Shown: positions 14,589 to 52,572 of the stretch, piece by piece
Position numbering within the stretch: position 1 is the stretch's first letter
How the letters are laid out: each line of letters begins with the position of its first letter
From: Rhodanobacter sp. Soil772
GTDB taxonomy: Bacteria > Pseudomonadota > Gammaproteobacteria > Xanthomonadales > Rhodanobacteraceae
Length of the DNA: 64,000 bases
Direction: 5' to 3'
Assembly: GCF_001428385.1 (NCBI RefSeq)
Contig: NZ_LMSK01000001.1
Span: forward strand, 187,355-251,354
Notes under the pieces: model-generated
Database searches by the model: none
The model's input: the letters and a program-made list of their open reading frames with translations, nothing else
Told to the model about the DNA's origin: nothing
Translations under genes and position numbers: made by a program

Positions 14589-16196
14589 CTACATGCGGAA
14601 CACGCCGTAGCGCTGTGGTTCGATCGGCGCGTTGAGCGAGGCGGAGATCGCCAAGCCGAGCACGCGGCGGGTGTCGACCGGGTCGATGATGCCGTCGTCC
14701 CACAGCCGCGCGCTGGCGTAGTAGGGGTGGCCCTGGCGTTCGTACTGGTCGCGCAACGGCGCCTTGAACGCTTCTTCCTCATCGGCCGACCATTCGCCGC
14801 CCTTGGCCTCGATGCCGTCGCGCTTGACCGTGGCCAGCACGCTCGCGGCCTGTTCGCCGCCCATCACGCTGATACGCGCATTCGGCCACATCCACAGGAA
14901 ACGCGCGCCGTAGGCGCGGCCACACATCGCGTAATTGCCGGCGCCGAAGCTGCCGCCGATCACCACGGTGAACTTCGGCACGTGCGAGCAGGCCACGGCG
15001 GTGACCATCTTTGCGCCATCTTTGGCAATGCCGGCCTGCTCGTACTTCTTGCCGACCATGAAGCCGGTGATGTTCTGCAGGAATACCAGCGGCACGTTGC
15101 GCTGGTTGCACAGCTCGATGAAGTGCGCGCCCTTGAGTGCGCTCTCGGCGAACAGGATGCCGTTGTTGGCGACGATGCCCACCGGGTAGCCGTGGATGTG
15201 CGCGAAACCACAGACCAGGGTCTTGCCGTAGCGCGCCTTGAACTCGTGGAACTCGGAGCCGTCGACGATGCGTGCGATCACCTCGCGGATGTCGAACGGG
15301 CGGCGGGTGTCCTGCGGGATCACGCCGTACAGTTCCTCGGCCGGGTACTTCGGCTCGACCGGCGCGCGCAGCGCCAGCGGCATCTCCTTCTTGCGGTTGA
15401 GGTGGGCCACGATGTCGCGCGCGATCGACAGCGCGTGTGCGTCGTTCTCGGCGTAGTGGTCGGCCACGCCGGAGATGGACGTGTGCACGTCCGCGCCGCC
15501 CAGCGTCTCGGCGTCGACCACCTCGCCGGTGGCCGCCTTCACCAGCGGCGGGCCGCCGAGGAAGATCGTGCCCTGTCCGCGCACGATGATCGTCTCGTCG
15601 CTCATCGCCGGCACGTAGGCGCCGCCGGCGGTGCACGAGCCCATCACCACCGCGATCTGCGGGATGTTCAGCGACGACATCCGCGCCTGGTTGTAGAAGA
15701 TTCGCCCGAAGTGTTCCTTGTCCGGGAACACCTCGTCCTGCAGCGGCAGGAACGCGCCACCGGAATCGACCAGGTAGATGCAGGGCAGGTTATTTTCCAG
15801 CGCCACTTCCTGCGCGCGCAGGTGCTTCTTCACGGTGATCGGGAAATAGGTGCCGCCCTTGACGGTAGCGTCGTTGGCGACCACCACCACCTCGATGCCA
15901 TTGACCCGGCCGATGCCGGTGATCAGGCCGGCAGCGGGCGCGGCGTCGTCGTACATGCCGTGCGCGGCCAGCGGCGACAGTTCCAGGAACGGCGAGCCCG
16001 GATCGAGCAGGGCGCGGATGCGTTCGCGCGGTGGCAGCTTGCCGCGGGCGACGTGCTTTTCGCGTGCCTTGACGCCGCCGCCCTCGGCGCTGCGCACCAG
16101 CTCGCGCTGCAGGTCGTCGACCACGGCGCGCAGTTGGGCGCTGCTGGCCTGGAACTCGGGCGAACGCGGGTCGATCTGCGAGGCGATGATGCTCAT
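14589..16196 (-). CDS. mccB: Methylcrotonoyl-CoA carboxylase, carboxyltransferase (beta) subunit
   Basis: The 535-residue protein has the crotonase-like carboxyltransferase halves of biotin-dependent acyl-CoA carboxylases. The N-domain has [38 protein letters not shown] and [16 protein letters not shown]; the C-domain has [27 protein letters not shown] and [16 protein letters not shown]. The FPDKEHFG and [16 protein letters not shown] wording is specific for MCC beta compared with propionyl-CoA carboxylase. It works in leucine degradation, carboxylating 3-methylcrotonyl-CoA. The biotin-carrying alpha subunit is not next to it, which is unusual for a liu operon. An upstream extension of the frame was rejected because the family begins at the ATG at 16196. 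Confidence 0.93.
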
Positions 16197-16293
16197 GGTG
16201 CGTGCTGGCTGTAGGGAGTCGAATGCCGATGATAGCGGCGCACGCCCTCCATCAGAACCACGGACTTCGGCGAGCGGCCCGCAGGGGCGACTT

Positions 16294-18381
16294 CTACGCC
16301 CGCGGCTCGCGGCGCAGGTCGGTGGCGTCCGCAGTGTGGAAATGCCGTTTGAACGCGACGTCGCCGGCGGCCGGCTCCTCCAGTTCACGCGCGTAGCGGT
16401 GGCCGGCGTAGACCGCGTGGGCGATCAGTCCCGGCGCTTCGGCGTCGCCGATGCGGCGCAGCGAGCGGATGCCGGCCTCGGCCCAGGCCGCTTCGCGCTG
16501 CTGCAGTTCCTGGAACAGCGCATCGTCGGGCACGCGCGCGGTGACGGTGACCACCGCATCGCAGGCGAGCTCGCGGCGCTGGCCGCTCCAGACGTCTTCC
16601 AGGGTCAGCGTCGAACCGTCGAAGCCGGCGATGTTGTGCGATACCAACGGCTCGATCCCGAGCTTGGCCATGCGCTTGCGGATATGCCGGTAATCCAGCG
16701 TATTCAGGCTCCACGGGGCGATGCTGTCGTCGGGGGTCACGTAGGTCACGTCGCAGCCGTGCGCGCGCAGCATCTCGGCCGCGACGCTGGCGTAGTAGAA
16801 ACCATCGTCGTCGAAGACCACTACGCGACCCTGTGGCAGGCGGCCGTCCATCAGGTCGTCGGGGGTGAATACGCGCGGGTTGTCGACGAAGCCGGCGATG
16901 GCGAAGCCGTTGCTGCGGCCGTAGCCGTCGCGGCGCCAGTGGCAACCGGTGGCGAGCACCACGTGTTCGGCGCCGAAGTCGAGCACGTCCTGCGCACCCA
17001 ACGCGGAATCGAGGTAGACGGCCACATTCGCGAGTTTGCCGATCTGGCCGGTGCGCCAGTCGCGCACGCGCGCCCATTCGGCCAGGCCCGGCAGGCGGGC
17101 TTCGCGGGTGACGCGCCCACCCAGCTCGCGGCGCGCCTCGGCCAGACTCACCTCGTAACCGCGCTGGCCGAGCGCGCGCGCGGCCTCCAGCCCGGCCGGC
17201 CCGGCGCCGACCACCAGCACGCGGCTGGCCGAGCGCTTCGCTTGAATGCGCTCCGGATGCCAGCCCTTGCGCCACTCCTCGCCCATGGTCGGGTTCTGCG
17301 TGCAGCGGATCGGCGAGATGGTCATGTCGCCGGACACGCAGATGTTGCAGCCGATGCATTCGCGGATGTCGTCGATGCGGCCTTCCTCGATCTTGCGCGG
17401 CAGAAAGGGATCCGCGATCGACGGACGCGCGCAGCCGATCATGTCCAGCACGCCGCGCTTGAGCTGCGACACCATGGTGTCCGGCGAGGTGAAGCGGCCC
17501 ACGCCCACCACCGGCTTGCTGGTGGTTTGCTTGACGAAGTCGATGAACGGCTCCTGCGCACCTTCGCCGGCGAAGCGCGAGGGCACCGAGTCGTTGTACC
17601 AGGCGGCCAGGTTCACGTCCCACAGGTCGGGCAGCTCGGCCAGCATGCCGACGATGTCCTTCGCCTCGGCCAGCTCCACGCCGCCGGGCCCGAGCAGTTC
17701 CTCGGTGGCGAAGCGCAGCGCCACCGCGCAGGTGTCGCCGACGGCATCCTTCGTGTCCTGCAGCACTTCGCGCAGCAGGCGCACGCGGTTCTCCAGCGAG
17801 CCGCCGTACTCGTCGCTGCGCTGGTTGCGCCGGCGTTGCAGGAAATGCATCGCCAGCGACAGGTCGTGCGCCGCGTAGACGTAGATGATGTCCATGCCCG
17901 CGCGCTTGCCGCGGATCGCCGCCTCGCGATGCCAGCGGCGATATTCGCGAATATCGTGCAGGGTCATCGCGCGCGCCTGCGACGGGTAGCCGTATTTGGA
18001 CGGCTGGTGCGACGGCGCCAGCAGCACCTCGCGCGAATACAGGTTCGACGCGGTGGGGCCGTTGTGCGACAGCTCGAGTGCGGCCAGCGCGCCGTGCGCG
18101 TGCACCTTGTCGCACATCAGCGCCAGCGCGGGGATGTCGCGGTCGTCCCACAGCCGCGCCTCGACGTAGGGCGTGAGGTCGCCGCTGGGGTGGATTTCGC
18201 ACTCCTCGGTGGAGACCACCGCCCAGCCACCCTCGGCCTTGGTCTCGCGCATCGCCGCATGCGCCAGCGGCATCGCATGGCCCATGCCGTTGCAGTGCGG
18301 CACCTGGAAGAAGCGGTTCTTCGCCGTCACCGGGCCGATCTGTAGCGGAGTGAACAGGATGTCGTAGCGCGGATCTCTCAT
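16294..18381 (-). CDS. Trimethylamine dehydrogenase-type flavoprotein (OYE-like + 4Fe-4S + FAD-fold domain)
   Basis: The 695-residue protein is colinear with Methylophilus trimethylamine dehydrogenase (compared from memory). Cys30 in QVPHCNGMG matches the cysteine that holds 6-S-cysteinyl FMN; Tyr169 and His172 (YVYAAH) and Asp264 match its catalytic triad; Cys342, 345, 348 and 360 (CIGCNIC..IRC) would bind a 4Fe-4S cluster; [16 protein letters not shown] begins the ADP-binding part. The substrate-bowl residues differ: Glu60 replaces Tyr60 and Asp352 replaces Trp355, while the third aromatic (Trp261) is kept. This is nearer to histamine-dehydrogenase-like sites, so the substrate is another amine. 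The start overlaps the APC transporter stop by 4 nt. Confidence 0.85.
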
Positions 18382-37986: not shown

Positions 37987-38062
37987 CGTGGTAGCCCAAA
38001 ACTCCGCGCTCCCTGTCGATCCACTAGAATCGGCAAGTTCAAGCACGATGTCCGGAGTTGCC

Positions 38063-41000
38063 ATGAGTTCCCCCGCCAAGCACGTCCCCGCCAGCGCCCC
38101 GCAGACGGAAACCACCCCACTGCGTTTCGTCACCGCGGCCAGCCTGTTCGATGGCCACGACGCGGCGATCAACATCATGCGGCGAATCATCCAGTCGCAG
38201 GGTGCGGAGGTGATCCACCTCGGCCACAACCGTTCGGTCGAGGACGTGGTGCGCGCCGCGCTGCAGGAAGATGCCGACGCGATCGCGCTGTCGTCCTACC
38301 AGGGCGGCCACGTCGAGTACTTCAAATACATGGTCGACATGCTGCGCGAGCGCGGCGCCGGCCACGTGCGCGTGTTCGGCGGCGGCGGCGGCACCATCAC
38401 GCCGGAAGAGATCCGCGAGCTGCAGGCCTACGGCGTCGAGCGCATCTACCACCCGAACGACGGCATGAAACTCGGCCTGGTCGAGATGATCGAGGACGTG
38501 ATGCAGCGCGCCGGCAGCGCGGCGGCCAAGCGCGCGGAAGCCGAAGACCGCGCGCTGCCCAAGGTCGACATCGACGACGAAATCTCGATCGGCCACATGC
38601 TCTCGGCGATCGAGCTGGGCAAGCTCGACGGCAGCGAGCTCGAACACCATCGCAAGCAGTGGAAGCTGGCCGGCAAGCACACCCCGGTGCTTGGCCTCAC
38701 CGGCACCGGCGGCGCCGGCAAGTCGTCGGTGGTGGACGAATTGCTGCTGCGCTTCCTGCATGCGTTCCCCGACATGCGCATCGCCGTGCTCGCCGTCGAT
38801 CCGACGCGTCGCCGTTCGGGTGGCGCGTTGCTGGGCGACCGCATCCGCATGAATTCGTTGCGCTCCAAGCGCGTGTACATGCGCTCAATGGCCACCCGCC
38901 GCCAGCACGCGGCCACCAGCATCGTGCTGCACGACTGCATCGACTTCCTGAAGAGCCAGCCGTATGACCTGGTGATCGTCGAGACCGCCGGCATCGGCCA
39001 GAGCGATTCGGAAATCGTCGACCTGGTCGACTTCCCGGTCTACGTGATGACCAGCGACTACGGTGCCGCCAGCCAGCTGGAGAAGATCGACATGATCGAC
39101 TTCGCCGACCTGGTCGTGCTGAACAAGTTCGACAAGCGCGGTGCCGAAGACGCGCTGCGCGACGTGCGCAAGCAGTGGAAGCGCAACCACACCGCGTTCA
39201 CCGTGAAAGATGCGGACGTGCCGGTCTACCCGACTATCGCCAGCCAGTTCAACGACCCGGGCGTCACCTGGATGTTCACCAACCTGTGCCGGCTGATGCG
39301 CGAGAAGCTCGCGCTGCCGGTGGAGAAATGGTCGCCCCAGCTCGACACCACCCTGAAAGAACCGCGCGCCACCGTGCTGATTCCCGGCGCCCGCGTGCGC
39401 TACCTCGCCGAGATCGCCGAGCAGGGCCGTGCCATCAACAGCGGCATCGCGCATCAGGCCGAATTCGCCAGCAAGGCGCAGCATTACTACGAGGCGCTGA
39501 AGGAGCTGGGCGATAGCAGGCTGCCGCGCCCGCTCGATCTGTACAGCAGCGCAGACTTGCACGCATCTCCATCCGATCACGCTGAGCGTAGCCCGCAGGG
39601 CGCAGTCGAAGCGCCGCACCACGTCGACCGCTCCATCCTCCTTCTGCGCCAGCGCTACAACGCCGCGCTCAAGGAACTCAGCCACGAAGCCATCCATCAG
39701 TTGCGCGAATGGCCGGCGCTGTACGAGTCGGTCACCGCCGACGTCAACGAATACAAGGTGCGCGACAAAGTCATCCGCGTCGACAACTACCGCGACTCGC
39801 TGAGCCACCAGAAAATTCCGAAAGTCTCCCCGCCCAAATCGAAAGACTGGGGCGAACTCGTCAGCTTCCTCGGCCGCGAGAACCTGCCGGGCCACTACCC
39901 GTACACCGGCGGCGTCTACCCGTACCGCCGCAGCGGGGAAGATCCCACCCGCATGTTCGCAGGCGAAGGCACGCCCGAGCGCACCAACCGCCGCTTCCAT
40001 TATCTGAGCCAGGGCGGCGCCGCCACGCGCCTGTCCACCGCGTTCGACTCGGTCACCCTGTACGGCGAAGACCCCGCGCCGCGCCCGGACATCTACGGCA
40101 AGATCGGCAACTCCGGCGTCAACATCGCCACCCTGGACGACATGAAGAAGCTGTACTCCGGCTTCGACCTCAGCGCGCCCAGCACCTCCGTCTCCATGAC
40201 CATCAACGGCCCCGCGCCGATGATCCTGGCGATGTTCATGAACACCGCCATCGACCAGAACGTCGAGAAATACCTCAAGGAAGACGGCCAGCGCTGGGCT
40301 GCCGCGCAGCAAACCATCGACAAGCTCTACAAGAACAGCTCGCGCCCGCAATACCACGGCGACCTGCCCAAGGGTAACGACGGCTTGGGCCTGGGCCTGC
40401 TCGGCGTCTGCGGCGACGAACTGGTCGACGCGGAAACCTACGCCCGCATCAAGGCCGACACGCTCACCAAGGTGCGCGGCACCGTGCAGGCCGACATCCT
40501 CAAGGAAGACCAGGCGCAGAACACCTGCATCTTCTCGACCGAATTCGCGCTGCGTATGATGGGCGACATCCAGCAGTACTTCGTCGACCACAAGGTGCGC
40601 AACTTCTACTCGGTGTCGATCAGCGGTTACCACATCGCCGAAGCCGGTGCGAACCCGATCAGCCAGCTCGCCTTCACGCTCAGCAACGGCTTCACCATCG
40701 TCGAGTACTACCTCGCCCGCGGCATGAAGGTGGACGACTTCGCGCCGAATCTCAGCTTCTTCTTCTCCAACGGCATGGACCCGGAATACACCGTCATCGG
40801 CCGCGTCGCCCGCCGCATCTGGGCCCGCGCCATGCGCGAGCGCTACGGCGCCAGCGCCCGCAGCCAGATGATGAAGTACCACATCCAGACCTCCGGCCGC
40901 TCGCTGCACGCGCAGGAAATCCAGTTCAACGACATCCGCACCACGCTGCAGGCGATGTACGCCCTGTTCGACAACTGCAACTCCCTGCACACCAACGCCT

Positions 41001-41578
41001 ACGACGAAGCGATCACCACGCCCACCGAAGAAAGCGTGCGCCGCGCGGTGGCGATACAGATGATCATCAACAAGGAACTCGGCCTCAACTTCAACGAGAA
41101 CCCGTGGCAGGGCAGCTACGTCGTCGACACCCTCACCGACCTGGTGGAAGAAGCCGTCTACAAGGAGTTCGAGGCGATCAGCGAGCGCGGCGGCGTGCTC
41201 GGCGCGATGGACACTATGTACCAGCGCGGCAAGATCCAGGAAGAGTCGATGTACTACGAGCACAAGAAGCACGACGGCTCGCTGCCGCTGATCGGGGTCA
41301 ATACGTTCCTGCCGAAGGATCATGGCGGGGAGATCGCTACCGAGATCGAGTTGATCCGCTCGACCGAAGAAGAGAAGGGCCAGCAGATCGCCAACGTGAA
41401 GCGCTACGGCGAGGCACGCAATGCGCTGGCCTCAGACAGCCTCAAGGTGTTGCAGGTAACGGCGCGCGACCGGCGCAACGTGTTCGAGCAGTTGATCGAG
41501 GCGGTGAAGTACAACTCGCTGGGGCAGATTTCGCACGCGTTGTATGACGTCGGCGGCGAATACCGCCGCAATATGTAA
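38063..41578 (+). CDS. icmF: Fused isobutyryl-CoA mutase (IcmF)
   Basis: The 1171-residue protein has the IcmF domain order. An N-terminal B12-binding domain carries the lower-ligand motif in [12 protein letters not shown] (DGH at 30-32). A MeaI-type GTPase chaperone has Walker [10 protein letters not shown] at 214-222 and the ETAGIGQSD switch. The large catalytic TIM-barrel part has [11 protein letters not shown] and many substrate-channel segments to the end. It interconverts isobutyryl-CoA and butyryl-CoA with adenosylcobalamin, and some members also act on pivalyl- and isovaleryl-CoA. ATG 38063 has GGAG 5 nt upstream. About residues 500-525 hold an unusual extra linker (see the repeat at 39581). 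A diverged copy of its 3' end is found at 42314. Confidence 0.93.
39581..39614 (+). repeat. REP-like sequence embedded in the icmF coding region
   Basis: GCTGAGCGTAGCCCGCAGGG followed by CGCAGTCGAAGCGC resembles the extragenic GCTGAGCGTAG...CAGTCGAAG palindromes common in this order. Here it lies in frame inside icmF and codes part of the linker [13 protein letters not shown] between the GTPase region and the mutase domain. Identity as a REP derivative is from pattern memory. Confidence 0.5.
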
Positions 41579-41581
41579 GCC

Positions 41582-42121
41582 ATGTCCCGCCTGGTCGAGC
41601 AGATCAAGCAGGCTGTTGCCGCCTTTACTGGCTGCAAGACCACGCCTGCGTTGATCGGGGGATTGGCGTTGGCCGCGCACCAGGTGGTGCGCGCCACGCG
41701 CGATGTGGATTTTCTCGCCGACGCGGACGACGCGGATCGGCTGCACGAGATCCTGCTGGCGCTCGGCTACCGCTGCGTCCATCGCAGCGAGGACGCAGCC
41801 AACTACCTGCGCGAGGACGAGGGCTTGGATCTGCTGTATGCGCATCGCCCGACGGCACGACGCCTGCTCGCCGACGCCGAGGAACGTTCCACGGCCATGG
41901 GGTCGCTGCGCGTCATCAGCGCCGAAGGCCTGATCGGGTTCAAGCTGCAGGCGCTGGTCAACAACCCATCCCGCACGCGCGACCTCGACGACATCCGTGG
42001 GCTGTTGCGCGCGCAGCGTGGCCGGCTCAACATGCAGGAAGTGCAGGGGTACTTCGCGCTGTTCGACCGCCAGGAGATGCTGGATGAATTACTCGCCGAA
42101 ATCGCCAACGACAAAGCATGA
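41582..42121 (+). CDS. Nucleotidyltransferase-like protein (AbiEii/MNT-related fold)
   Basis: The 179-residue protein has the nucleotidyltransferase core PALIGGLALAAHQVVRATRDVDFLADAD: a GG, then R.TRDVDF with two acidic residues, as in AbiEii-like and MNT toxins and other minimal nucleotidyltransferases. A later helix has ISAEGLIGFKLQALVNNPSRTRDLDDI, where the lysine and the D-L-D element are typical. It starts 4 nt after the icmF stop and overlaps the next small ORF by 38 nt, so the two form a cassette. Function as a toxin or tRNA-modifying enzyme is inference. Confidence 0.75.
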   Translation: MSRLVEQIKQAVAAFTGCKTTPALIGGLALAAHQVVRATRDVDFLADADDADRLHEILLALGYRCVHRSEDAANYLREDEGLDLLYAHRPTARRLLADAEERSTAMGSLRVISAEGLIGFKLQALVNNPSRTRDLDDIRGLLRAQRGRLNMQEVQGYFALFDRQEMLDELLAEIANDKA

Positions 42122-42281
42122 CGGTGTCCGCGAGCCGTTGATCGGCAGCGACGTGCTGGATGTCGTGCAGGCGGGCAGGGGCGATCTATCGGACTGGGTG
42201 GAGTTGATGGAGGCGGTGGAGGTGTTGTGTCCAGTGTGGCCGGCGGTTGAGATTCAGCGTAACGGGGCATTTCGACTTTGA
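42084..42281 (+). CDS. Small protein partner of the nucleotidyltransferase, unknown
   Basis: The 65-residue protein (starts MNYSPKSPTTKHDGVREPLI) has a compact acidic helix region DVLDVVQAGRGDLSDWVELMEAVEVLC. It begins inside the nucleotidyltransferase gene (38-nt overlap, different frame), a common arrangement for toxin-antitoxin-like pairs. No known fold is recognised. It lies directly before the second icmF 3'-end copy. Confidence 0.6.
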   Translation: MNYSPKSPTTKHDGVREPLIGSDVLDVVQAGRGDLSDWVELMEAVEVLCPVWPAVEIQRNGAFRL

Positions 42282-42313
42282 TTCGGCAGCAACAGTCATC
42301 TGCGCCTAGTGAT

Positions 42314-42692
42314 CTCGGCGCGATGGACACCATGTACCAGCGCGGCAAGATCCAGGAAGAGTCGATGTACTACGAGCACAAGAAGCACGACGGCTCGCTG
42401 CCGCTGATCGGCGTCAATACGTTCCTGCCGAAGGATCACGGCGGGGAGATTGCTACCGAGATCGAGTTGATCCGGTCGACGGAGGAGGAGAAGGGGGTAC
42501 AGATTGCGAATGTGAAGCGGTATGGGGAGGCGCGGAATGCGCTGGCTGCGGACAGCTTGAAGGTGCTACAGACGACGGCGCGGGAGCGGCGGAATGTGTT
42601 TGAGCAGTTGGTGGAGGCGGTGAAGTACAACTCGTTGGGGCAGATTAGTCATGCTCTCTACGAAGTTGGGGGGAGTATCGGCGGAATATGTA
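42314..42692 (+). pseudogene. Duplicated, diverged 3' end of icmF
   Basis: From CTCGGCGCGATGGACAC onward, this region repeats the last about 125 codons of icmF (matching 41198-41578), with many synonymous changes and only a few protein changes (for example GQQ to GVQ, ASDS to AADS, VTARD to TTARE). Near the end one G is missing in a run of six, so the frame leaves EYRRNM and runs to 42706; with seven G it would end at the TAG at 42690-42692. It has no catalytic part and no start of its own family, so it is a remnant. A frame from 42278 reads through it and may still be translated. Confidence 0.88.
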
Positions 42693-42734
42693 GTTGCTCA
42701 TCATAACCTTATGTAAACGATCGTAGGGGACAAC

Positions 42735-45221
42735 ATGAACGTCGATGATCTGGCGCTGATTCGCGGGCAACTCGCAAGCCTTCTTGGGAGAGGGGAGCTC
42801 TCCCTGCTTTTAGGGGCTGGCTTTTCTTTAGCAAATTGCACAAAATCTGGGCGTTTGCCGAATTCACAAGGTCTGCGGGACCTAATTCTCGACGCATGTG
42901 GCAAAAAACCAGGGCCGAAAACGGCCTTAAAAGATGCCTACACCTTTGGGCGCCGTGAGCTGCCTGAATTTGATAAATTCCTTGCCTCTGTTTTTACCGT
43001 CGAGTCCGTGCCGCACTGGCAAGAGGCGATCTTCTATTACGTGTGGAATCGTATTTACACCACCAACATAGACAATGTGCTTGACGTTGCCTACGAACAG
43101 GCGCGAAGAGTGGGAAAGGCTAGCGCCGAATACACCTTCTTTAACTACACCGATCCGGGCCTATTGAGCGATACGATTGGTACTGTTCCAGTGGTGACGA
43201 TTCATGGGACTTGTAGCAGACTTAAAGACGGATTCATTTTTTCCGATATCGAATATGGGGTTGCCGCAACGAAAATTCTCGATTGGCATCGGGAACTAGC
43301 CGCTCGATTGATGGCTGGTGGCTTGGTTGTAGTCGGTAATCAACTGGATGAAAGCGATTTTGATGCATACATAGCTCAAAGGGAGAGCGCATATCCAAGC
43401 AAGGATACACAGCCAGAAAATTGGCTTGTGATGCCTAGTCCAGATGAAATAAAGGCAGAAAACTACCGTGCCGCTGGCTTCCACGTAATCGACGCTACCG
43501 CTGAGGAACTATTCGCTGTTCTGTTTGCGGCGCAACCGCCAAAAACTGTAGCTGATCTAGTAATGGAAACAAATCCGGCAATAAAAAAGGCTTCTACCGA
43601 TCAGAAAGCTTTGGTCTGGTTCCGCAGCTCTTTTTCGCCGGTTCTTGTGGAGATGGAAGATGCCAAAGGTCAAACAGGCATCTTGCGACACTTCATAACT
43701 GGTGCCCATCCAGACTGGTTCTATATTGTGCACAATGCGCATGCAGCGACGCTGCGTGCGCACGATCTGACCGGCCGGGTAGCAGCTTTAATGCAGGCTC
43801 AAGCGGTCGGCGTTGGATCTCTCAACGTGATCGGCCCGAGTGGCTCAGGTAAGACCACGGCCATCCGTTCCGCCATGGCCGAACTCGTGTCGACATACCG
43901 GTGTATGTACGAATTTAATGACGCAGCAGGTATCGATCCCGATCTTCTTGTAAGCGTTATCTCGAGGTTCTCGGAAAAAAGCATTTTAATCTTCTATTCG
44001 GCTTCGGAGTTTTTTTACGCAATTAGTCATGTCACAAATAAATTTAGTGGCAAGCCAAATCCATTCTGTCTGTTTGTCCTAGAGGATAGGACTAGTGATT
44101 ATAGACAGAATTATCAGCAACTTAAGGGCGGGGTGTCCATTCCGCCCTTCGAGATGGGTGAGTTATCAATTGATGATGCAGGTGCGTTGGCAAGGAAGAT
44201 GGGGGAGAGTGGACTTCGATTTGAGGGGTTTTCTGACCTCCCACTCGAAAAGCAGGCTGCTCGCATTATCGATAAGGAACGCGGTTACGGTGGAGACCTG
44301 TTATCGGCGCTTTTTTCTATCACCACTCATCAGAATTTTGAAGCCAAAGTATATGATGAGTATTTTTCAGTAAAAAGCCGGAAAGCAAGCTATGTATTGG
44401 ATATTGCCGCGATTCTGGATTCCCTAAGTCTTCCGTTGCCCATAAGCTATCTTGCAGGCATGCTTGATTGTTCGGTGGAAGATATTAATGCTTACCTTGC
44501 CAATGACCTCGCGGGGATCTTGCTCTATTCCCGGAAGACGTTACAGGTTAGATGTCGGCATCGCGTCATCGCCACCTATTACTTTGGGCAGTGCATCGCA
44601 GGTCACGGATCTGTGGACCTGTTGGTGGGTGTACTTACATTTCTTTCCAGGCAGTTTACCGTCGCAGATATTAAACATCATCCGCTGTCGTACAGGATAT
44701 ATAAAGAGCTTATATCCTTCGAATTTATGTACGGCAGCTACTTTGCCTTAGAGTCTAGCGGGCGCGATGTTGAGGCTGTCTATCACCACGCACAGGGCTT
44801 GTTTGGTAACGATGGAATTTTTTGGCTCCAATTCGGCCGGTTCTATCGAAAGACCGAACGCTTGGATGAAGCGATTGACTGCTTCAGAACTGGTCTCGGT
44901 ATTTACGATTCATTCCAGACGCGACATTCGCTTGGAACTACGCTTTTGGAGAAGTATTTGTTGGATGGATGTGCGGATAGGAAGCTTTACGAAGAGGGGG
45001 TTGAGGCATTGGAAGTAGAGGCGCTAAAGCGTGGTAGCCGAGATGCATATCCTGTTTCTACTCTGATTGCTTTCCTTTCCCGAATTCTGCAAGCGGATTC
45101 CTCCAATCTAGATGCTGAGAACAAGGTAAAGCGCCATGTGAGTTATGCCATGCAGCACTTTAAGGAAGATAATTACGCTATGGGTGCGGTCAGCGATTAC
45201 TTTAGGCACTTTGGGAGATAG
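42735..45221 (+). CDS. SIR2-domain P-loop NTPase with C-terminal repeats, putative STAND/Avs-type defence protein
   Basis: The 828-residue protein has three parts. Residues 20-270 form a SIR2-like NAD-binding domain: LLLGAGFS (27-31 GAGFS), TTNID (109-113), IHGT (157-158 HG) and VVVGNQLDESDF. Residues about 340-560 hold a P-loop ATPase with Walker A GPSGSGKTT (367-375); the expected Walker B region (SILIFYSASEF, 416-425) lacks the usual Asp/Glu pair. The rest is helical, TPR-like near FWLQFGRFYRKTERLDEAIDCFRTGL. SIR2 + STAND-type ATPase + repeat sensor is the design of Avs5-like and related anti-phage proteins, which deplete NAD upon sensing phage proteins. Its base use is clearly more AT-rich than its neighbours, a sign of transfer. 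The subfamily is not certain. Confidence 0.8.
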   Translation: MNVDDLALIRGQLASLLGRGELSLLLGAGFSLANCTKSGRLPNSQGLRDLILDACGKKPGPKTALKDAYTFGRRELPEFDKFLASVFTVESVPHWQEAIFYYVWNRIYTTNIDNVLDVAYEQARRVGKASAEYTFFNYTDPGLLSDTIGTVPVVTIHGTCSRLKDGFIFSDIEYGVAATKILDWHRELAARLMAGGLVVVGNQLDESDFDAYIAQRESAYPSKDTQPENWLVMPSPDEIKAENYRAAGFHVIDATAEELFAVLFAAQPPKTVADLVMETNPAIKKASTDQKALVWFRSSFSPVLVEMEDAKGQTGILRHFITGAHPDWFYIVHNAHAATLRAHDLTGRVAALMQAQAVGVGSLNVIGPSGSGKTTAIRSAMAELVSTYRCMYEFNDAAGIDPDLLVSVISRFSEKSILIFYSASEFFYAISHVTNKFSGKPNPFCLFVLEDRTSDYRQNYQQLKGGVSIPPFEMGELSIDDAGALARKMGESGLRFEGFSDLPLEKQAARIIDKERGYGGDLLSALFSITTHQNFEAKVYDEYFSVKSRKASYVLDIAAILDSLSLPLPISYLAGMLDCSVEDINAYLANDLAGILLYSRKTLQVRCRHRVIATYYFGQCIAGHGSVDLLVGVLTFLSRQFTVADIKHHPLSYRIYKELISFEFMYGSYFALESSGRDVEAVYHHAQGLFGNDGIFWLQFGRFYRKTERLDEAIDCFRTGLGIYDSFQTRHSLGTTLLEKYLLDGCADRKLYEEGVEALEVEALKRGSRDAYPVSTLIAFLSRILQADSSNLDAENKVKRHVSYAMQHFKEDNYAMGAVSDYFRHFGR

Positions 45222-45304
45222 TAAAAAACGAAACCGGGACGGAGTGAGCTGGCCCGGGTTTGACGGACACCTTTGAACGGGGACAGTCCCCCGGGAGGTG
45301 TCAG

Positions 45305-45427
45305 ATGGTCAGGTGGCAACGATTCACGGCGGAGTTCAAGCGCGAGGCGGTACGCCTCCTCGATTTGGGTGAGCGCCCGGCATCGGAGGTGGCCATCGAT
45401 CTGGGCATACGCCGCAACCAGCTCTAG
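45305..45427 (+). pseudogene. IS transposase orfA fragment
   Basis: A 40-codon frame MVRWQRFTAEFKREAVRLLD...SEVAIDLGIRRNQL ends in TAG. This is the first third of an IS3-type orfA (helix-turn-helix start, RFTAEFKREAV). The coiled-coil part and orfB are absent, so it is a remnant. TGACGGACACC at 45261 may be part of its old terminal repeat. Confidence 0.75.
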
Positions 45428-45598
45428 GCAAATAAGAGGTCGGGTTCATTTAATACCGGTCTGGGCTGATTTTGGTGGCCTCCCGCGGGGTCTGACGCCG
45501 ACCGCCCGCTGGGCCAGGGCTTCGATTTGTTGCTGGAAACGTTGGCTGCCCCACGCACGCTGTTGCTGAGTGTGCAGGCGAACTAAACGGGGTCAGGT
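45428..45598. other. Short spacer with degenerate fragments
   Basis: One frame ends ...PLGQGFDLLLETLAAPRTLLLSVQAN, which looks like the C-terminal end of an unidentified protein cut off from its start. GGTCGGGTTCATTTAAT and ACGGGGTCAGGTTCACTTA flank it; these are REP/RAYT-type debris. No intact gene is seen. Confidence 0.4.
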
Positions 45599-45916
45599 TC
45601 ACTTACAGTCGTTTGAATTTGGGTGGGGCGGGCGATGCGCGGGCCTGATGCCGGCGAAGCGTTGGGTCTTGGCTTCGACCATTGCGCGGAAGTCATCGCG
45701 ACCCAAGACGCGTTGTTGTTGAAGGTAGGTTCGGATGGCTTTCAGGTCGTCGTCGGATAGGGTTTCGTGTAACAGCTGACGGTAGGCTGCGGCGCGCGCT
45801 TCCGGTGTGGCGGCGAGCGTGGTGTATTCCGGATGCGGCGAGAGAATGGCCTCTTGGCGAAGGCCGCAGTGGCTGGCGCAGCTCGACCAAGGGTAAGCAG
45901 TCGGATTGTCCGTCAT
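45599..45916 (-). pseudogene. RAYT (REP-associated tyrosine transposase) C-terminal fragment
   Basis: The frame (MTDNPTAYPWSSCASHCGLRQEAILSPHPEYTTLAATPEARAAAYRQLL) is the C-terminal half of the RAYT/TnpA-REP family, with the PWSS and PEARAAAYR segments. The N-terminal HUH-tyrosine catalytic half is missing, so it is inactive. Its stop lies in GGGTCAGGTTCACTTACAG, the REP-type sequence that normally flanks these genes. Confidence 0.8.
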
Positions 45917-45924
45917 CCGCGCGG

Positions 45925-46002
45925 AAACCGGGACGGAGGAAGTTAAATCGAAACTGGACCCAGAGTGAGCTTTCTCAAGAAAGGCGACTCTGACCTTTGG
46001 CG
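45925..46002. repeat. REP-like unit next to RAYT fragment
   Basis: AAACCGGGACGGAG is followed by a hairpin CAGAGTGAGCTTTCT-CAAG-AAAGGCGACTCTGACC. The same two pieces recur elsewhere in the window (45230-45262, 47950-48029, 50150-50205, 61324-61352). Confidence 0.65.
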
Positions 46003-46048
46003 TGCTGATATATCAACCCGTCATACTTGCCTCAACCCAGGAGCAAGT

Positions 46049-46273
46049 ATGGAAACGATCCACGTAGTGCAGCCCTTCGACCGCGTGAAGAATGGCTTGA
46101 AACCAGGCCAGGTCCTGCAGTTCAAGACGGCCGATGAGGCCGCGCGCAGGGCGGGGCTGCTGGCCGGCAAGCATGCCGGCGTCGTCGCGTACAGCATGGA
46201 CGTGGACGAAGAGAGTGGAGAGTACGGCACGCCGCGAGTGCTGTTCGAGTCGGGGGACGTACCTGAGCTTTGA
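46049..46273 (+). CDS. Conserved-looking small protein, unknown
   Basis: The 74-residue protein (METIHVVQPFDRVKNGLKPG...) has the pattern VVQPF, then FKTADEAARRAGLLAGKHAGVVAYSMDVDEESGEYGTPRVLFESGDVPEL, suggesting one compact beta-alpha domain. AGGAG 5 nt before ATG 46049 supports translation. I recall similar small proteins in mobile or accessory regions of proteobacteria, but no function. It lies between REP debris and the IS3 element. Confidence 0.6.
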   Translation: METIHVVQPFDRVKNGLKPGQVLQFKTADEAARRAGLLAGKHAGVVAYSMDVDEESGEYGTPRVLFESGDVPEL

Positions 46274-46355
46274 TCGGCCGAAGCATAAGCTCCCCCGTCT
46301 GACAGACACCCCATAAGTAGAACTTTCTGGCATGTTTCCCCAGCCAGGAGGTTCC

Positions 46356-46622
46356 ATGAAGAAGTCACGATTCACCGAGACCCAGATCATCTCGATTCTC
46401 AAGCAGGCCGATGCCGGCGTTCCTGTGAAGGACATCTGCCGTCAGGCAGGCATCAGCGTCCCAACCTACTACCAGTGGAAGAGCAAGTACGGAGGGCTGG
46501 AGGCGTCGGAGCTACGGCGGGTCAAGGATCTGGAGTCGGAGAACGCCAAGCTCAAGCGCATGTACGCCGAGTTGGCGCTGGACAATGCGGCGCTGAAGGA
46601 CCTGATCGCAAAAAAATTGTAG
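46356..46622 (+). CDS. IS3 family transposase OrfA
   Basis: The 88-residue protein MKKSRFTETQIISILKQAD has an N-terminal helix-turn-helix that binds the IS ends and a leucine-zipper-like helix (LRRVKDLESENAKLKRMYAELALDNAALKDL). A ribosome-binding site AGGAGG lies 5 nt before ATG 46356. It ends shortly after the A-rich slippery sequence at 46610-46616 used to make the OrfAB fusion. Confidence 0.92.
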   Translation: MKKSRFTETQIISILKQADAGVPVKDICRQAGISVPTYYQWKSKYGGLEASELRRVKDLESENAKLKRMYAELALDNAALKDLIAKKL

Positions 46623-47470
46623 GGCCGGCCCAGAAACGTGAGGCCGTGCGCTTCCTGACCGAAGTGCATGCGCGGCCGCTGAGCCGGTCCTGTGACTACC
46701 TGGGGCTGTCGCGGGCGGCGTGGTACGCGCCGCCGCTGGACTGGACGGTGCGCGATGCGGAGTTGATCGCCGCGCTAGCCAAGCTGGTCGAGGCTCGGCC
46801 CAGTCGCGGCTTCTGGAAGTGCTGCGACCAGCTGCGCAAGAAGCGACCGGACTGGAACCCCAAACGCATCTATCGGGTGTACAAGGCCATGCGACTGAAC
46901 CTGCGACGGGCCGCGAAGCGGCGCCTGCCCAAGCGTGAACGGGTGGCGCTGTACGTACCCAAGCTGCCAGACACGGTGTGGTCGGTCGACTTCATGAGCG
47001 ATGCGCTCGCCTGCGGTCGGCGCTTTCGAACCTTCAACATGGTCGACGACTTCAACCGCGAAGCCCTTCACATCGAGGTGGATACATCCATCAACTCAAG
47101 CCGCCTGGTGCGCGTGTTCGAGCAACTCAAGCGCGACCATGGCCTGCCGAAGGTAGTTCGGTCGGACAACGGCCCGGAGTTCCTCGGTGAGGTGTTCACC
47201 CAATGGGCCAAGGCCAACGGCGTCGCTCTCCAGTACATCCAGCCGGGCAAGCCGAACCAGAACGCCTTCATCGAACGCTTCAACCGCACCTTTCGCGAAG
47301 AGGTTCTCGATCAGCACCTGTTCGTCTGCCTTGAGGATGTCCGCGAGGCCGCGCATTGGTGGATGATCGACTACAACGAGGAACGACCACACGACGCGCT
47401 CAACGGCATGACGCCCGCCGAGTACCGCAACACGTTCGCCGGAAGTTCTACTTTTGAAGTGTCTGCTTGA
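46616..47470 (+). CDS. IS3 family transposase OrfB, made by -1 frameshift
   Basis: The -1 frame continues from the A7 run as IVGPAQKREAVRFLTE and carries the DDE integrase-type catalytic triad: Asp in WSVDFMSDAL, Asp in VVRSDNGPEF and Glu in NAFIERFNRTF. No internal start with a ribosome site is apparent, so translation as OrfAB (46356-47470) by slippage at A AAA AAA is expected. All catalytic residues are intact, so the element may be active. Confidence 0.9.
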   Translation: MVGPAQKREAVRFLTEVHARPLSRSCDYLGLSRAAWYAPPLDWTVRDAELIAALAKLVEARPSRGFWKCCDQLRKKRPDWNPKRIYRVYKAMRLNLRRAAKRRLPKRERVALYVPKLPDTVWSVDFMSDALACGRRFRTFNMVDDFNREALHIEVDTSINSSRLVRVFEQLKRDHGLPKVVRSDNGPEFLGEVFTQWAKANGVALQYIQPGKPNQNAFIERFNRTFREEVLDQHLFVCLEDVREAAHWWMIDYNEERPHDALNGMTPAEYRNTFAGSSTFEVSA

Positions 47471-50445: not shown

Positions 50446-52389
50446 TCAGCCGCTGCGGGTTGAGCCCGCCACCACCGGCAGTAGCACGGCGCTGTGTCCA
50501 TTGGGCCCATGCTCGATCGTCACGGTCGCCTTGCGGTAGTCGGACGGCTTGGCGAACAGGATGTTGGGCACGTAGCTCTGCGGGTTGCGGTCGTAGAGTG
50601 GGAACAGGCTGGACTGGATCTGCACCATGATGCGGTGGCCGGGCTTGAACTCGTAGTTCACTGTCGGCAGGCGGAACTTGTATTCCTGCACCTGGTTCGC
50701 CGGAATCGGCGACGGGTCGGAGAAGCTCTTGCGGTAGCGCCCGCGGAAGATGTCGAGCGAGACCGGCAGCTGGTAGCCGCCCATGGCCGGATCGGTCGGA
50801 TCGGTGCCGGGGTAGAGGTCGATCAGCTTGACCACGAAATCGCCGTCGGTGCCGGTGGTGCTGGCGAAGATGTCGGCGATCGGCGCGCCCTGGACCGTCA
50901 CGGTCGTGGTCAGCACCGGCGTGGCGTAGGTGAGCACGTCGGGTCGGTCCGCCACGAAGCGCTGGTCGTACACCAGCCAGGTGCGCCAGCGGTCGTTCTT
51001 CTGCGGGATCGGGCGCGGCAGGTAGGGCACCGGCTTGGCCGGGTCGGAGACGTAGCTGTCGCTGCCATCGGTGGGCTGCTCGAAGCCGAGGCCCATGTCC
51101 GCCTGCAGGTAGAGCGGGGTGAGCGACTGCTCGCTGGCCGGCTTCCAGTTCGCGAAGCTGTCCCAGTGCTGCTCGACCGGGTTGTAGATCATCGCCTCGG
51201 GCAGCGTCTTGGACTGCGGCGTGCCACGCAGGTAGTGGTTGAACCAGGGGATCATCACCTGTTGGCGAAACTGGGCGGTAGTGTTGCCCGGCCACTTGAG
51301 CGGTCCCATGTTCCAGCCGTCGCGGTTGATCTGGCTGTGCCACCACGGGCCGATCACGAGATGGTTGTTGGCGCCGTGTCCCGCTTTCTTGAGCGCTTCC
51401 CAGGCATGCACGGCGCCATAGATGTCCTCCTGGTCCCACAGGCCTTGCAGCCACATCGTGGGCACGCTGGACGGATGTGCGACGAGCAGCTTGTCGAGCG
51501 CCTGCAGCTGCCAGAAGGCGTCGTAGGCCGGGTGGGTGGAAAAGCGGTTCCACCAGGGCAGCTGCTTGAAGCCGTTGGCCTCGGCATAGGCGCCGGCCGA
51601 GCCCGCGTCGAGGAAATTGGTGTAGTCGTCGTAGCTTTCGCGCGGAATGTTCTTGCCTTCGCCCTTCTTGCTCATCTGGCCGCTGAAGTAGTCGAGGTTC
51701 ACCTGGCGCAAGGCGCCGTAGTGGTACCAGTCGTCACCCATCCAGCCGTCGATCATCGGACTTTCCGGCGCCGCGACCTTCAGCGCGGGGTGCGGGTGGA
51801 GCAGAGCCATGGCGACTGTCCAGCCGTCGTAGGACGAGCCGATCATGCCGACCTTGCCGTTCGATTCCTTCGTGTTCTTCACCAGCCAGTCGATCGTGTC
51901 CCAGGCGTCGGTGGTGTCGTCGGTGGTGGTCGGGTTGAGCGGCCCCATCGGCGGGCGCGTCATGATGTAGTTGCCTTCCGATCCGTATTTGCCGCGCACG
52001 TCCTGCCAGACGAGGATGTAGCTGCCGTCGGCCCAGTCCTTGTCGCCCGACCACACTGCGTCGGCCATGTGTGGGCTGTTGCCGGGCATCATGCCGCTGG
52101 CTTCGTAAGGCGTGCGCTCGAGCAGCATCGGCAGCTCGCGCGCATTCTTCGGGATCAGGATCACGGTGTGCAGCTTCACGCCGTCGCGCATCGGGATCAT
52201 CACGTCGCGCTTGATGTAGTCGAAGTTGTCTTGCGGCTGTTTCCAGTCGGCGGGGATGTCGGACCCGGTCTGGATCATGTCGGGCGTAACCTTCGCCGAC
52301 GTCTGGCCCATCGGAGGCATCGTGAACGCAGCGGCTGACAGGAAACAGGCAAGCGAAACGAGCGCCGCGCCCAGAGTGCTTTTCTTCAT
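50446..52389 (-). CDS. Alpha-amino acid ester hydrolase / CocE-NonD family hydrolase, exported
   Basis: The 647-residue protein has a signal peptide (LGAALVSLACFLSAAAF). The N-terminal alpha/beta domain carries the nucleophile motif GSSYDG (GxSYxG), an Asp in GLWDQEDIYG and His in IGPWWHSQ. The C-terminal jelly roll has FKPGHRIMVQIQSSLFPLYDRNP. It is colinear with the Xanthomonas citri alpha-amino acid ester hydrolase remembered in detail (YIKRDVMIPMRDGVKLHTV, DVRGKYGSEG), which acylates and cleaves beta-lactam antibiotics. The 20-residue longer start was rejected because ATG 52389 has a GAGG site and a clean signal peptide. Confidence 0.92.
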   Translation of the reverse strand: MKKSTLGAALVSLACFLSAAAFTMPPMGQTSAKVTPDMIQTGSDIPADWKQPQDNFDYIKRDVMIPMRDGVKLHTVILIPKNARELPMLLERTPYEASGMMPGNSPHMADAVWSGDKDWADGSYILVWQDVRGKYGSEGNYIMTRPPMGPLNPTTTDDTTDAWDTIDWLVKNTKESNGKVGMIGSSYDGWTVAMALLHPHPALKVAAPESPMIDGWMGDDWYHYGALRQVNLDYFSGQMSKKGEGKNIPRESYDDYTNFLDAGSAGAYAEANGFKQLPWWNRFSTHPAYDAFWQLQALDKLLVAHPSSVPTMWLQGLWDQEDIYGAVHAWEALKKAGHGANNHLVIGPWWHSQINRDGWNMGPLKWPGNTTAQFRQQVMIPWFNHYLRGTPQSKTLPEAMIYNPVEQHWDSFANWKPASEQSLTPLYLQADMGLGFEQPTDGSDSYVSDPAKPVPYLPRPIPQKNDRWRTWLVYDQRFVADRPDVLTYATPVLTTTVTVQGAPIADIFASTTGTDGDFVVKLIDLYPGTDPTDPAMGGYQLPVSLDIFRGRYRKSFSDPSPIPANQVQEYKFRLPTVNYEFKPGHRIMVQIQSSLFPLYDRNPQSYVPNILFAKPSDYRKATVTIEHGPNGHSAVLLPVVAGSTRSG

Positions 52390-52572
52390 GGCCAGAAGGT
52401 CCTCGTGATGATGGTCGCGTCCGCAATCTACCGCGGTTGCACACCGCAACTATGAGAGCGGTCACAAGGATTTTGCAATCCGGATGCGAGGAAGGGTGCC
52501 CGAAAAGGGGAAAGCCAAGAGCGCATTTTCCTGACAGGGGCGACGGGCCCGGCTTTCCACCCGGCGCTCGGT

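Follow-up and report, generated by a model that had tools for sequence, protein, structure and literature searches.

Within a 64,000-nucleotide stretch of the 3.57 Mb genome of Rhodanobacter sp. Soil772 (hereafter the window) we analysed P0001, a single gene whose product joins a SIR2 domain, a STAND-type P-loop NTPase and a helical C-terminus. It is an intact open reading frame (ORF) at 42735-45221 on the + strand, encoding 828 amino acids from an ATG start with zero internal stops. The parts of the gene are the following, in window coordinates.

42725..42729, + strand: AGGGG, likely ribosome-binding site, 5 nt upstream of the ATG (reading of the sequence)
42735..45221, + strand: SIR2-nSTAND-TPR protein P0001, 828 amino acids (intact ORF, Pfam, top full-length fold match Avs5)
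42735..43544, + strand: SIR2 domain, residues 1-270 (Pfam; VIA match to ThsA)
42813..42827, + strand: GAGFS, residues 27-31, NAD-binding motif (kept in all four close members)
43059..43073, + strand: TTNID, residues 109-113, with N111 and D113 (alignment)
43203..43208, + strand: HG, residues 157-158, with the catalytic His157 (alignment)
43689..44117, + strand: nSTAND_NTPase5 core, residues 319-461 (Pfam; separate domain model)
43833..43859, + strand: Walker A GPSGSGKTT, residues 367-375 (alignment)
43983..44009, + strand: degenerate Walker B ILIFYSASE, residues 417-425, with Tyr421 (alignment)
44079..44090, + strand: LEDR, residues 449-452, strand bearing a conserved arginine (alignment)
44592..45218, + strand: TPR-like helical C-terminus, presumed sensor, residues 620-828 (model; VIA matches to repeat proteins)

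The longest open frame spans 834 codons, against a maximum of 285 in 300 base shuffles of positions 42001-46000. A promoter scan for the gene gave two sites versus 3.2 expected, nothing above chance. The GC content of the gene is 0.483 and its GC content at third codon positions (GC3) 0.490, whereas GC3 lies at 0.738-0.898 in the surrounding icmF, insertion sequence (IS) orfB, DUF6164 and MtfA genes and in the gene at 50446-52449, at 0.828 in the neighbouring nucleotidyltransferase and at 0.810 in an icmF remnant. The sharp contrast in base composition claimed in a preliminary description of this DNA is thus borne out, and so is its account of one 828-residue gene with SIR2 motifs, a Walker A and a helical C-terminus, through the ORF, the motif positions, Pfam and the structural model.

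Pfam recognizes SIR2_2 at residues 106-249 (36.2 bits, curated cut-off 24.5) and nSTAND_NTPase5 at residues 319-461 (37.0 bits, cut-off 34), while its TPR matches stay below threshold. The same SIR2_2 and nSTAND5 pair is present in the close relatives L003, L079 and L080. These are about 48-57% identical to P0001, and the catalytic and Walker A residues are invariant in all four members of the clade, as are E450, D451 and R452.

An AlphaFold2 model of the full-length protein, built on nine sequences (the window protein and related loci), reached a mean predicted local distance difference test (pLDDT) score of 77.8 and a predicted template modelling (pTM) score of 0.48. The modelled C-terminus is helical from about residue 610 to 826, with ten-residue pLDDT means of 74-96, and matches repeat proteins in VIA with Z 13.5-14.5. 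The leading Foldseek matches of the model in the PDB are EfAvs5 (9jap, E 3.2e-21) and then the AVAST5 filament (9nc9), followed by human SAMD9, DSR2 and ThsA; among viral structures Foldseek had no match at E 0.001 or below. VIA aligned the model with 9jap over 582 residues spanning model positions 2-828 (Z 21.4). The SIR2 fold, for which the preliminary description had proposed a check by structure prediction, is present in the model, since the domain matches that of ThsA over 249 residues (Z 21.7, root-mean-square deviation (rmsd) 3.7 Å). Modelled alone, the NTPase core reached pLDDT 76.2 and pTM 0.64, and aligned to EfAvs5 over 195 residues (Z 12.8, 3.6 Å). The likeness to human SAMD9 also runs over the full length (Foldseek E 1.9e-11; VIA Z 15.7, 607 residues, rmsd 25.6 Å) but is distant, with 11% identity in the alignment; passages of PMC12931631 report an Avs5-SAMD9 resemblance too.

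Taken by itself, the SIR2 domain matches ThsA no less well than Avs5 (VIA Z 21.7 versus 21.4), and P0001 might be another SIR2 effector, of the Thoeris ThsA or DSR2 type, triggered by a nucleotide messenger or a tail protein and working with no STAND switch. With ThsA it shares the SIR2 fold, but the nine Pfam families listed for P0001 at E up to 1 include neither SLOG nor STALD; a P-loop STAND domain and repeats take their place, and no ThsB-like match was found by Pfam in the eight neighbouring ORFs scanned. With DSR2 it shares a SIR2 domain and a long helical C-terminus (Foldseek E 2.4e-9), but P0001 has a P-loop NTPase between the two and counts 828 residues against 1222 positions in the PADLOC Dsr2 model. 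As the full-length fold matches are moreover led by Avs5, we regard such an effector as very unlikely.

We are instead largely confident, by analogy, that P0001 is a single-protein, Avs5-type antiviral NADase, which would sense a phage and then destroy NAD+. Like the known Avs5 proteins (EfAvs5 9jap, the filament 9nc9 and PaAvs5), it is a single protein of about 830 residues made of SIR2_2, a STAND NTPase and helical repeats in a three-domain fold. It carries the GAGxS, TTNxD and HG motifs and a Walker A, and GAGxS, TTNxD and Walker A fall at residue positions very close to those given for PaAvs5-1 in the passages cited here of PMC12931631. The same passages assign the NTPase of the tested PaAvs5 proteins to nSTAND3, whereas that of P0001 is called nSTAND5, and nSTAND3 (PF20720) is absent among the nine Pfam families listed for it at E up to 1. 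In the viral-contig proteins L084 and L087 each of the two models reaches 30-40 bits, which makes the boundary between nSTAND3 and nSTAND5 soft. P0001 further differs from PaAvs5-1 in having His where that protein has Asn at the HG position, and Tyr where it has Glu410 as the Walker B acid. P0001 is therefore Avs5-like: it has the same working parts, and lacks the nSTAND3 call, the Walker B acid and a match to the PADLOC model. Proteins of the P4 satellite hotspot show a comparable plan, in which STAND is followed by repeats at the C-terminus and preceded by a TIR, SIR2 or nuclease effector at the N-terminus (PMC9122126, in part). Six further SIR2-STAND proteins were seen on viral contigs (L081, L082, L084-L087), five of them with Asn at the HG position.

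Several observations weigh against this assignment. In structure, the 9jap comparison gives a TM-score of only 0.26 and an rmsd of 26.6-26.7 Å; in the model the likeness to EfAvs5 is one of domain by domain and not of a rigid whole, the relative placement of the domains being different. The NTPase core of the full-length model is poor (ten-residue pLDDT means of 47-73), part of the SIR2 domain is modelled at only 52-70, and the lone NTPase model fits Cdc6/Orc, CED-4 and further AAA+ proteins (Z 11.2-12.8) about as well as EfAvs5, so that it shows a STAND/AAA+ fold without giving the choice of family. In sequence, the viral locus L084 is virtually EfAvs5 (1867.5 bits against 9jap, residues 4-853) and 92% identical to L086, yet BLASTP aligned P0001 with L084, beyond trivial pieces, over only 127 SIR2 residues (27%, E 6e-7), and P0001 is about 17% identical to L086 in a nine-protein alignment. 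A profile of the close clade reaches 9jap significantly only through its SIR2 part (E 3.1e-5); the strong hit of a nine-row profile (A6) on 9jap was discounted as circular, A6 including L086 itself. Scans of P0001 found no NCBIfam family near its own cut-off, nothing in PHROGs at E 0.001, and no Avs5 (PDLC02170), ThsA or Dsr2 match in PADLOC at E up to 1. Lastly, the change at the Walker B position could mean a crippled switch.

Part of this weight is relieved by the diversity of Avs5 itself. Three PaAvs5 proteins from different clades are mutually only 18-21% identical (PMC12931631, in part), and the distance of P0001 alone does not exclude membership. PDLC02170 is likewise unlisted at E up to 0.1 for L084 and L086, which lie near EfAvs5, and hence does not cover all Avs5; searches with it gave one weak partial match in 185 class genomes and none in 14 control genomes. 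In an 18-protein tree, unrooted and with long branches on which the program warns, P0001, L003, L079 and L080 form a clade with support 100/100, nearest to L004 and L005 (93/95), while the EfAvs5-like rows fall elsewhere; the tree omits L095 and lacks references of Avs5 clades 1 and 2. BLASTP aligned P0001 with L005 over 635 columns (24%, E 1e-22), and phmmer found no PDB match for L005. The effector-switch-sensor design of Avs5 type proposed in the preliminary description stands as regards architecture, catalytic residues, fold and a setting resembling a defence hotspot, but P0001 is not a close Avs5 and has lost the Walker B acid. The HMM comparison with SIR2-STAND families that it suggested is similarly divided, with SIR2_2 and nSTAND5 above their cut-offs and the PADLOC Avs5 model unmatched.

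Relatives of P0001 are few and scattered. Among 45 genomes of the genus the gene is found only in its own; G018 holds a weak match (E 4.5e-6), with 28% identity across the SIR2 part. Five of 398 genomes of the order match, namely its own, G294 (57%, full length) and three at 21-27%. A two-row profile in 369 class genomes gave P0001 and six short partial matches, and a six-row profile in 398 phylum genomes matched 28 at E 1e-10, many in the SIR2 part only; besides P0001, matches in G805, G1133 and G1046 cover the greater part of the profile without a break, and that in G965 does so in two pieces. A profile scan of genome contigs returned one relative, from Xanthomonas sp. Leaf131 (57%). Judged by eye, at L037:5130-10478 that gene lies directly behind the end of an aceE-like gene, again a large housekeeping gene. 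Two more close full-length relatives are on viral contigs, L079 (51%) and L080 (49%), and rescanning with the close clade returned no contig besides these two. Other searches gave nothing: the single-sequence scan of genome contigs with P0001, its tblastn searches of plasmids and phages, and the two-row profile scan of viral contigs. With the L080 protein, tblastn found no phage match and one distant plasmid match, in Vibrio pectenicida (21.6%). The clade therefore has four members, in the window genome, Xanthomonas sp. Leaf131 and two P2-like phage contigs; this is a lower bound, as relatives were sought from short peptide patterns that may miss members.

The L080 gene lies between a gpA-type replication nickase (phrog_91, 505.7 bits) and a P2-type portal (phrog_68, 537.4 bits), and the L079 gene adjoins a portal (469.0 bits) and a terminase. 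The P2 defence hotspot has been placed between gpA and gpQ (Rousset et al. 2022, PMC9122126, in part), and the L080 gene sits exactly in it. At L086:2620-8268 the near-EfAvs5 gene stands right behind a gene that looks gpA-like by eye, so classical Avs5 may occupy the P2 slot as well. Carriage by P2-like phages, together with the patchy occurrence and the atypical composition, is not what a housekeeping NAD-dependent deacetylase or signalling sirtuin would lead one to expect. The SIR2 fold is common ground with such enzymes, but here a domain of SIR2_2 type is fused to STAND and repeats, and we hold this explanation to be extremely improbable.

The clade also stands apart in its Walker B motif. 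In an alignment of 19 proteins the acidic position is Tyr in four of four clade members and Asp or Glu in all 15 others, the Walker A being intact across the clade. This alignment includes the near-copies L084 and L086, was made after dropping L091 and L111 (open frames that lack a G[AS]GxS motif near the start), and leaves out other loci from the six-row phylum search. Glu410 of PaAvs5-1 tolerates Gln and not Ala, which the authors ascribe to binding and conformational change and not to catalysis (PMC12931631, in part). By analogy Tyr421 may extend this tolerance further, or the invariant E450 and D451 may stand in for the missing acid.

The lost acid could also mark a broken or decaying defence gene whose switch is dead, in a region shaped by recombination. 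The icmF copy adjoining the gene is itself a remnant that lacks one base close to its end, and the gene occurs in just one of the 45 genus genomes when the weak G018 match is set aside. But the ORF is intact over 828 codons, and the same Tyr is found in all four clade members, two phage copies among them, beside invariant catalytic and Walker A residues; one residue fixed while the rest of the gene stays open is not expected of decay. We therefore judge decay unlikely, and P0001 to be a real and probably functional Avs5-like NADase of a divergent clade without the Walker B acid, the defence role and the NAD cleavage being inferred.

How such a protein might act can be sketched from Avs5 (mechanism, PMC12931631; filament activation, PMC12700824; both in part). 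The TPR-like array would most likely bind a phage protein, and this binding would release the ATP-bound STAND module. P0001 would then oligomerize (for Avs5 both dimers and filaments have been reported), bringing its SIR2 domains together to hydrolyse NAD+ through N111 and H157 and so stop growth before phage production. On a hypothesis suggested by Tyr421, a switch that has lost its Walker B acid would be thrown by ATP binding, with hydrolysis slight or absent and no hydrolysis-driven reset. The clade thus extends SIR2-STAND immune receptors to proteins unrecognized by the PADLOC and PHROGs models used, and offers a natural change at a residue thought central to STAND switching. It permits a clean test of whether ATP binding is enough for an Avs5-type receptor or hydrolysis is required.

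The neighbourhood of the gene records recombination. Its main features are the following.

37988..41578, + strand: icmF-like fused mutase, hotspot anchor (Pfam B12-binding, MeaB, MM_CoA_mutase)
41582..42121, + strand: AbiEii-like nucleotidyltransferase (Pfam AbiEii above cut-off, NTP_transf_5 just below)
42314..42693, + strand: displaced partial copy of the 3′ end of icmF, reaching as far as its stop codon (86% identity to 41198-41578)
46332..47470, + strand: transposase pair, orfA 46332-46622 and orfB 46475-47470 (Pfam HTH_Tnp_1, rve)

We take the mutase to be icmF from the order of its domains, and the transposase pair to be presumably of IS3 type. A segment of about 380 bp from the 3′ end of icmF (41198-41578) is found again at 42314-42693 with 86% identity; the 17-mer that starts both copies occurs exactly twice, and never in 100 shuffles. 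Both the recombination scar and the mobile element that the preliminary description placed beside the gene are therefore confirmed. The SIR2 gene begins 41 bp past the stop of the displaced end. Its closeness to a former icmF stop suggests that the gene may originally have stood right behind icmF, the nucleotidyltransferase having come later together with a fresh icmF end. Rfam and tRNA scans of the window returned zero hits each, hence no tRNA-type integration site. A short ORF at 45599-45916 on the − strand, with nothing in Pfam at E up to 1, appears by eye to be the end of a REP-associated transposase; fragments of the 45599-45916 sequence turn up again in many congener loci.

The nucleotidyltransferase lies on the same strand only 0.6 kb upstream, an adjacency that would suit a two-gene module with P0001. 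The icmF remnant separates the two genes, though, their GC3 values differ (0.83 against 0.49), and the nucleotidyltransferase stands behind icmF in congeners where the SIR2 gene was not found; a joint module is accordingly highly improbable. An AbiEii-like nucleotidyltransferase directly behind icmF was seen in the congener loci L045, L071, L072 and L076, and as a stand-alone gene it is possibly cargo in its own right.

The icmF region was matched in 38 of the 45 genus genomes, over at least 600 bp in 34 (the window genome included) and in short pieces only in four. We examined the 33 congener stretches (L045-L077), several of them short and at contig ends. Displaced icmF ends are present in eight of the 34 loci (L048, L049, L052, L055, L058, L061, L072 and the window), their last pieces terminating at most 2 nt from the icmF stop codon; a script counted 11 loci, of which L076 and L077 were read as alignment splits inside icmF itself, and L073 holds an additional icmF-end piece of 67 bp. 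One further, internal piece in L061 stops short of the stop codon. No conserved attachment motif was seen by eye behind the stop codon. In the 25 loci, window included, with more than 12 kb behind icmF, GC averages 0.535 in the first 1.5 kb and 0.620 beyond 8 kb (Wilcoxon p 4.5e-5).

We then scanned cargo behind icmF with PADLOC, which covers known and candidate defence systems. At least 80 bits were scored by 12 of 20 cargo proteins, in ten of 16 loci. In L045 (G001) a Thoeris pair at 15801-17701 (ThsA 629.8, ThsB 208.9 bits), behind icmF and the nucleotidyltransferase, fills the slot equivalent to that of P0001. The other matches are a UG5-nitrilase reverse transcriptase in L053 (934.9), a retron I-B reverse transcriptase and ATPase-Toprim in L050 (353.8 and 549.1), a retron III-A reverse transcriptase in L060 (547.1), DzbA in L066 (480.9), HEC-04 in L051 (610.3), PDC-S28 in L067 (990.5), PDC-S73 in L070 (718.3), PDC-S06 in L057 (507.1) and PDC-S49 in L064 (80.8), the PDC and HEC labels being what we take to be candidate systems. 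Scores were weak in L049 (26.1), L061 (19.9), L062 (27.1) and for one of two L059 proteins (13.4), and PADLOC matched neither the cargo of L063 and L058 nor the second gene of L051 nor the other L059 protein. As a control, none of ten proteins more than 12 kb into the stretches (eight loci, hand-picked from 30 listed ORFs) matched at E 0.01, giving a Fisher p of 0.0016 that ignores the non-random choice; the 20 cargo proteins (16 of 33 loci) were picked from an ORF list with a preference for large, low-GC or defence-like genes, so that 12 of 20 should not be read as an unbiased rate. The other 17 loci were left unscanned, ten of them longer than 10 kb (L046, L047, L048, L052, L054, L055, L068, L069, L071 and L074). 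The first genes of L046, L047, L048 and L055 are not defence-like by eye, which counts against a defence gene in every locus.

The slot behind icmF in this genus (41578-47467 in the window) looks like a chromosomal defence hotspot, and offers a defined site in which to seek more defence systems. Neither the SIR2-nSTAND5 clade nor an icmF hotspot is named in the titles and abstract openings of the open-licence literature searched. We tentatively propose, as a picture somewhat more doubtful than not, a separate Avs5-like clade common to P2-like prophages and chromosomes, whose switch without a Walker B acid would bind ATP and assemble once, with no reset; the icmF slot would be an undescribed hotspot where cassettes pile up by recombination at the stop codon, pushing old icmF ends downstream. 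Pieces of icmF ends behind icmF were also seen elsewhere in the family, for example in G190 and G1162.

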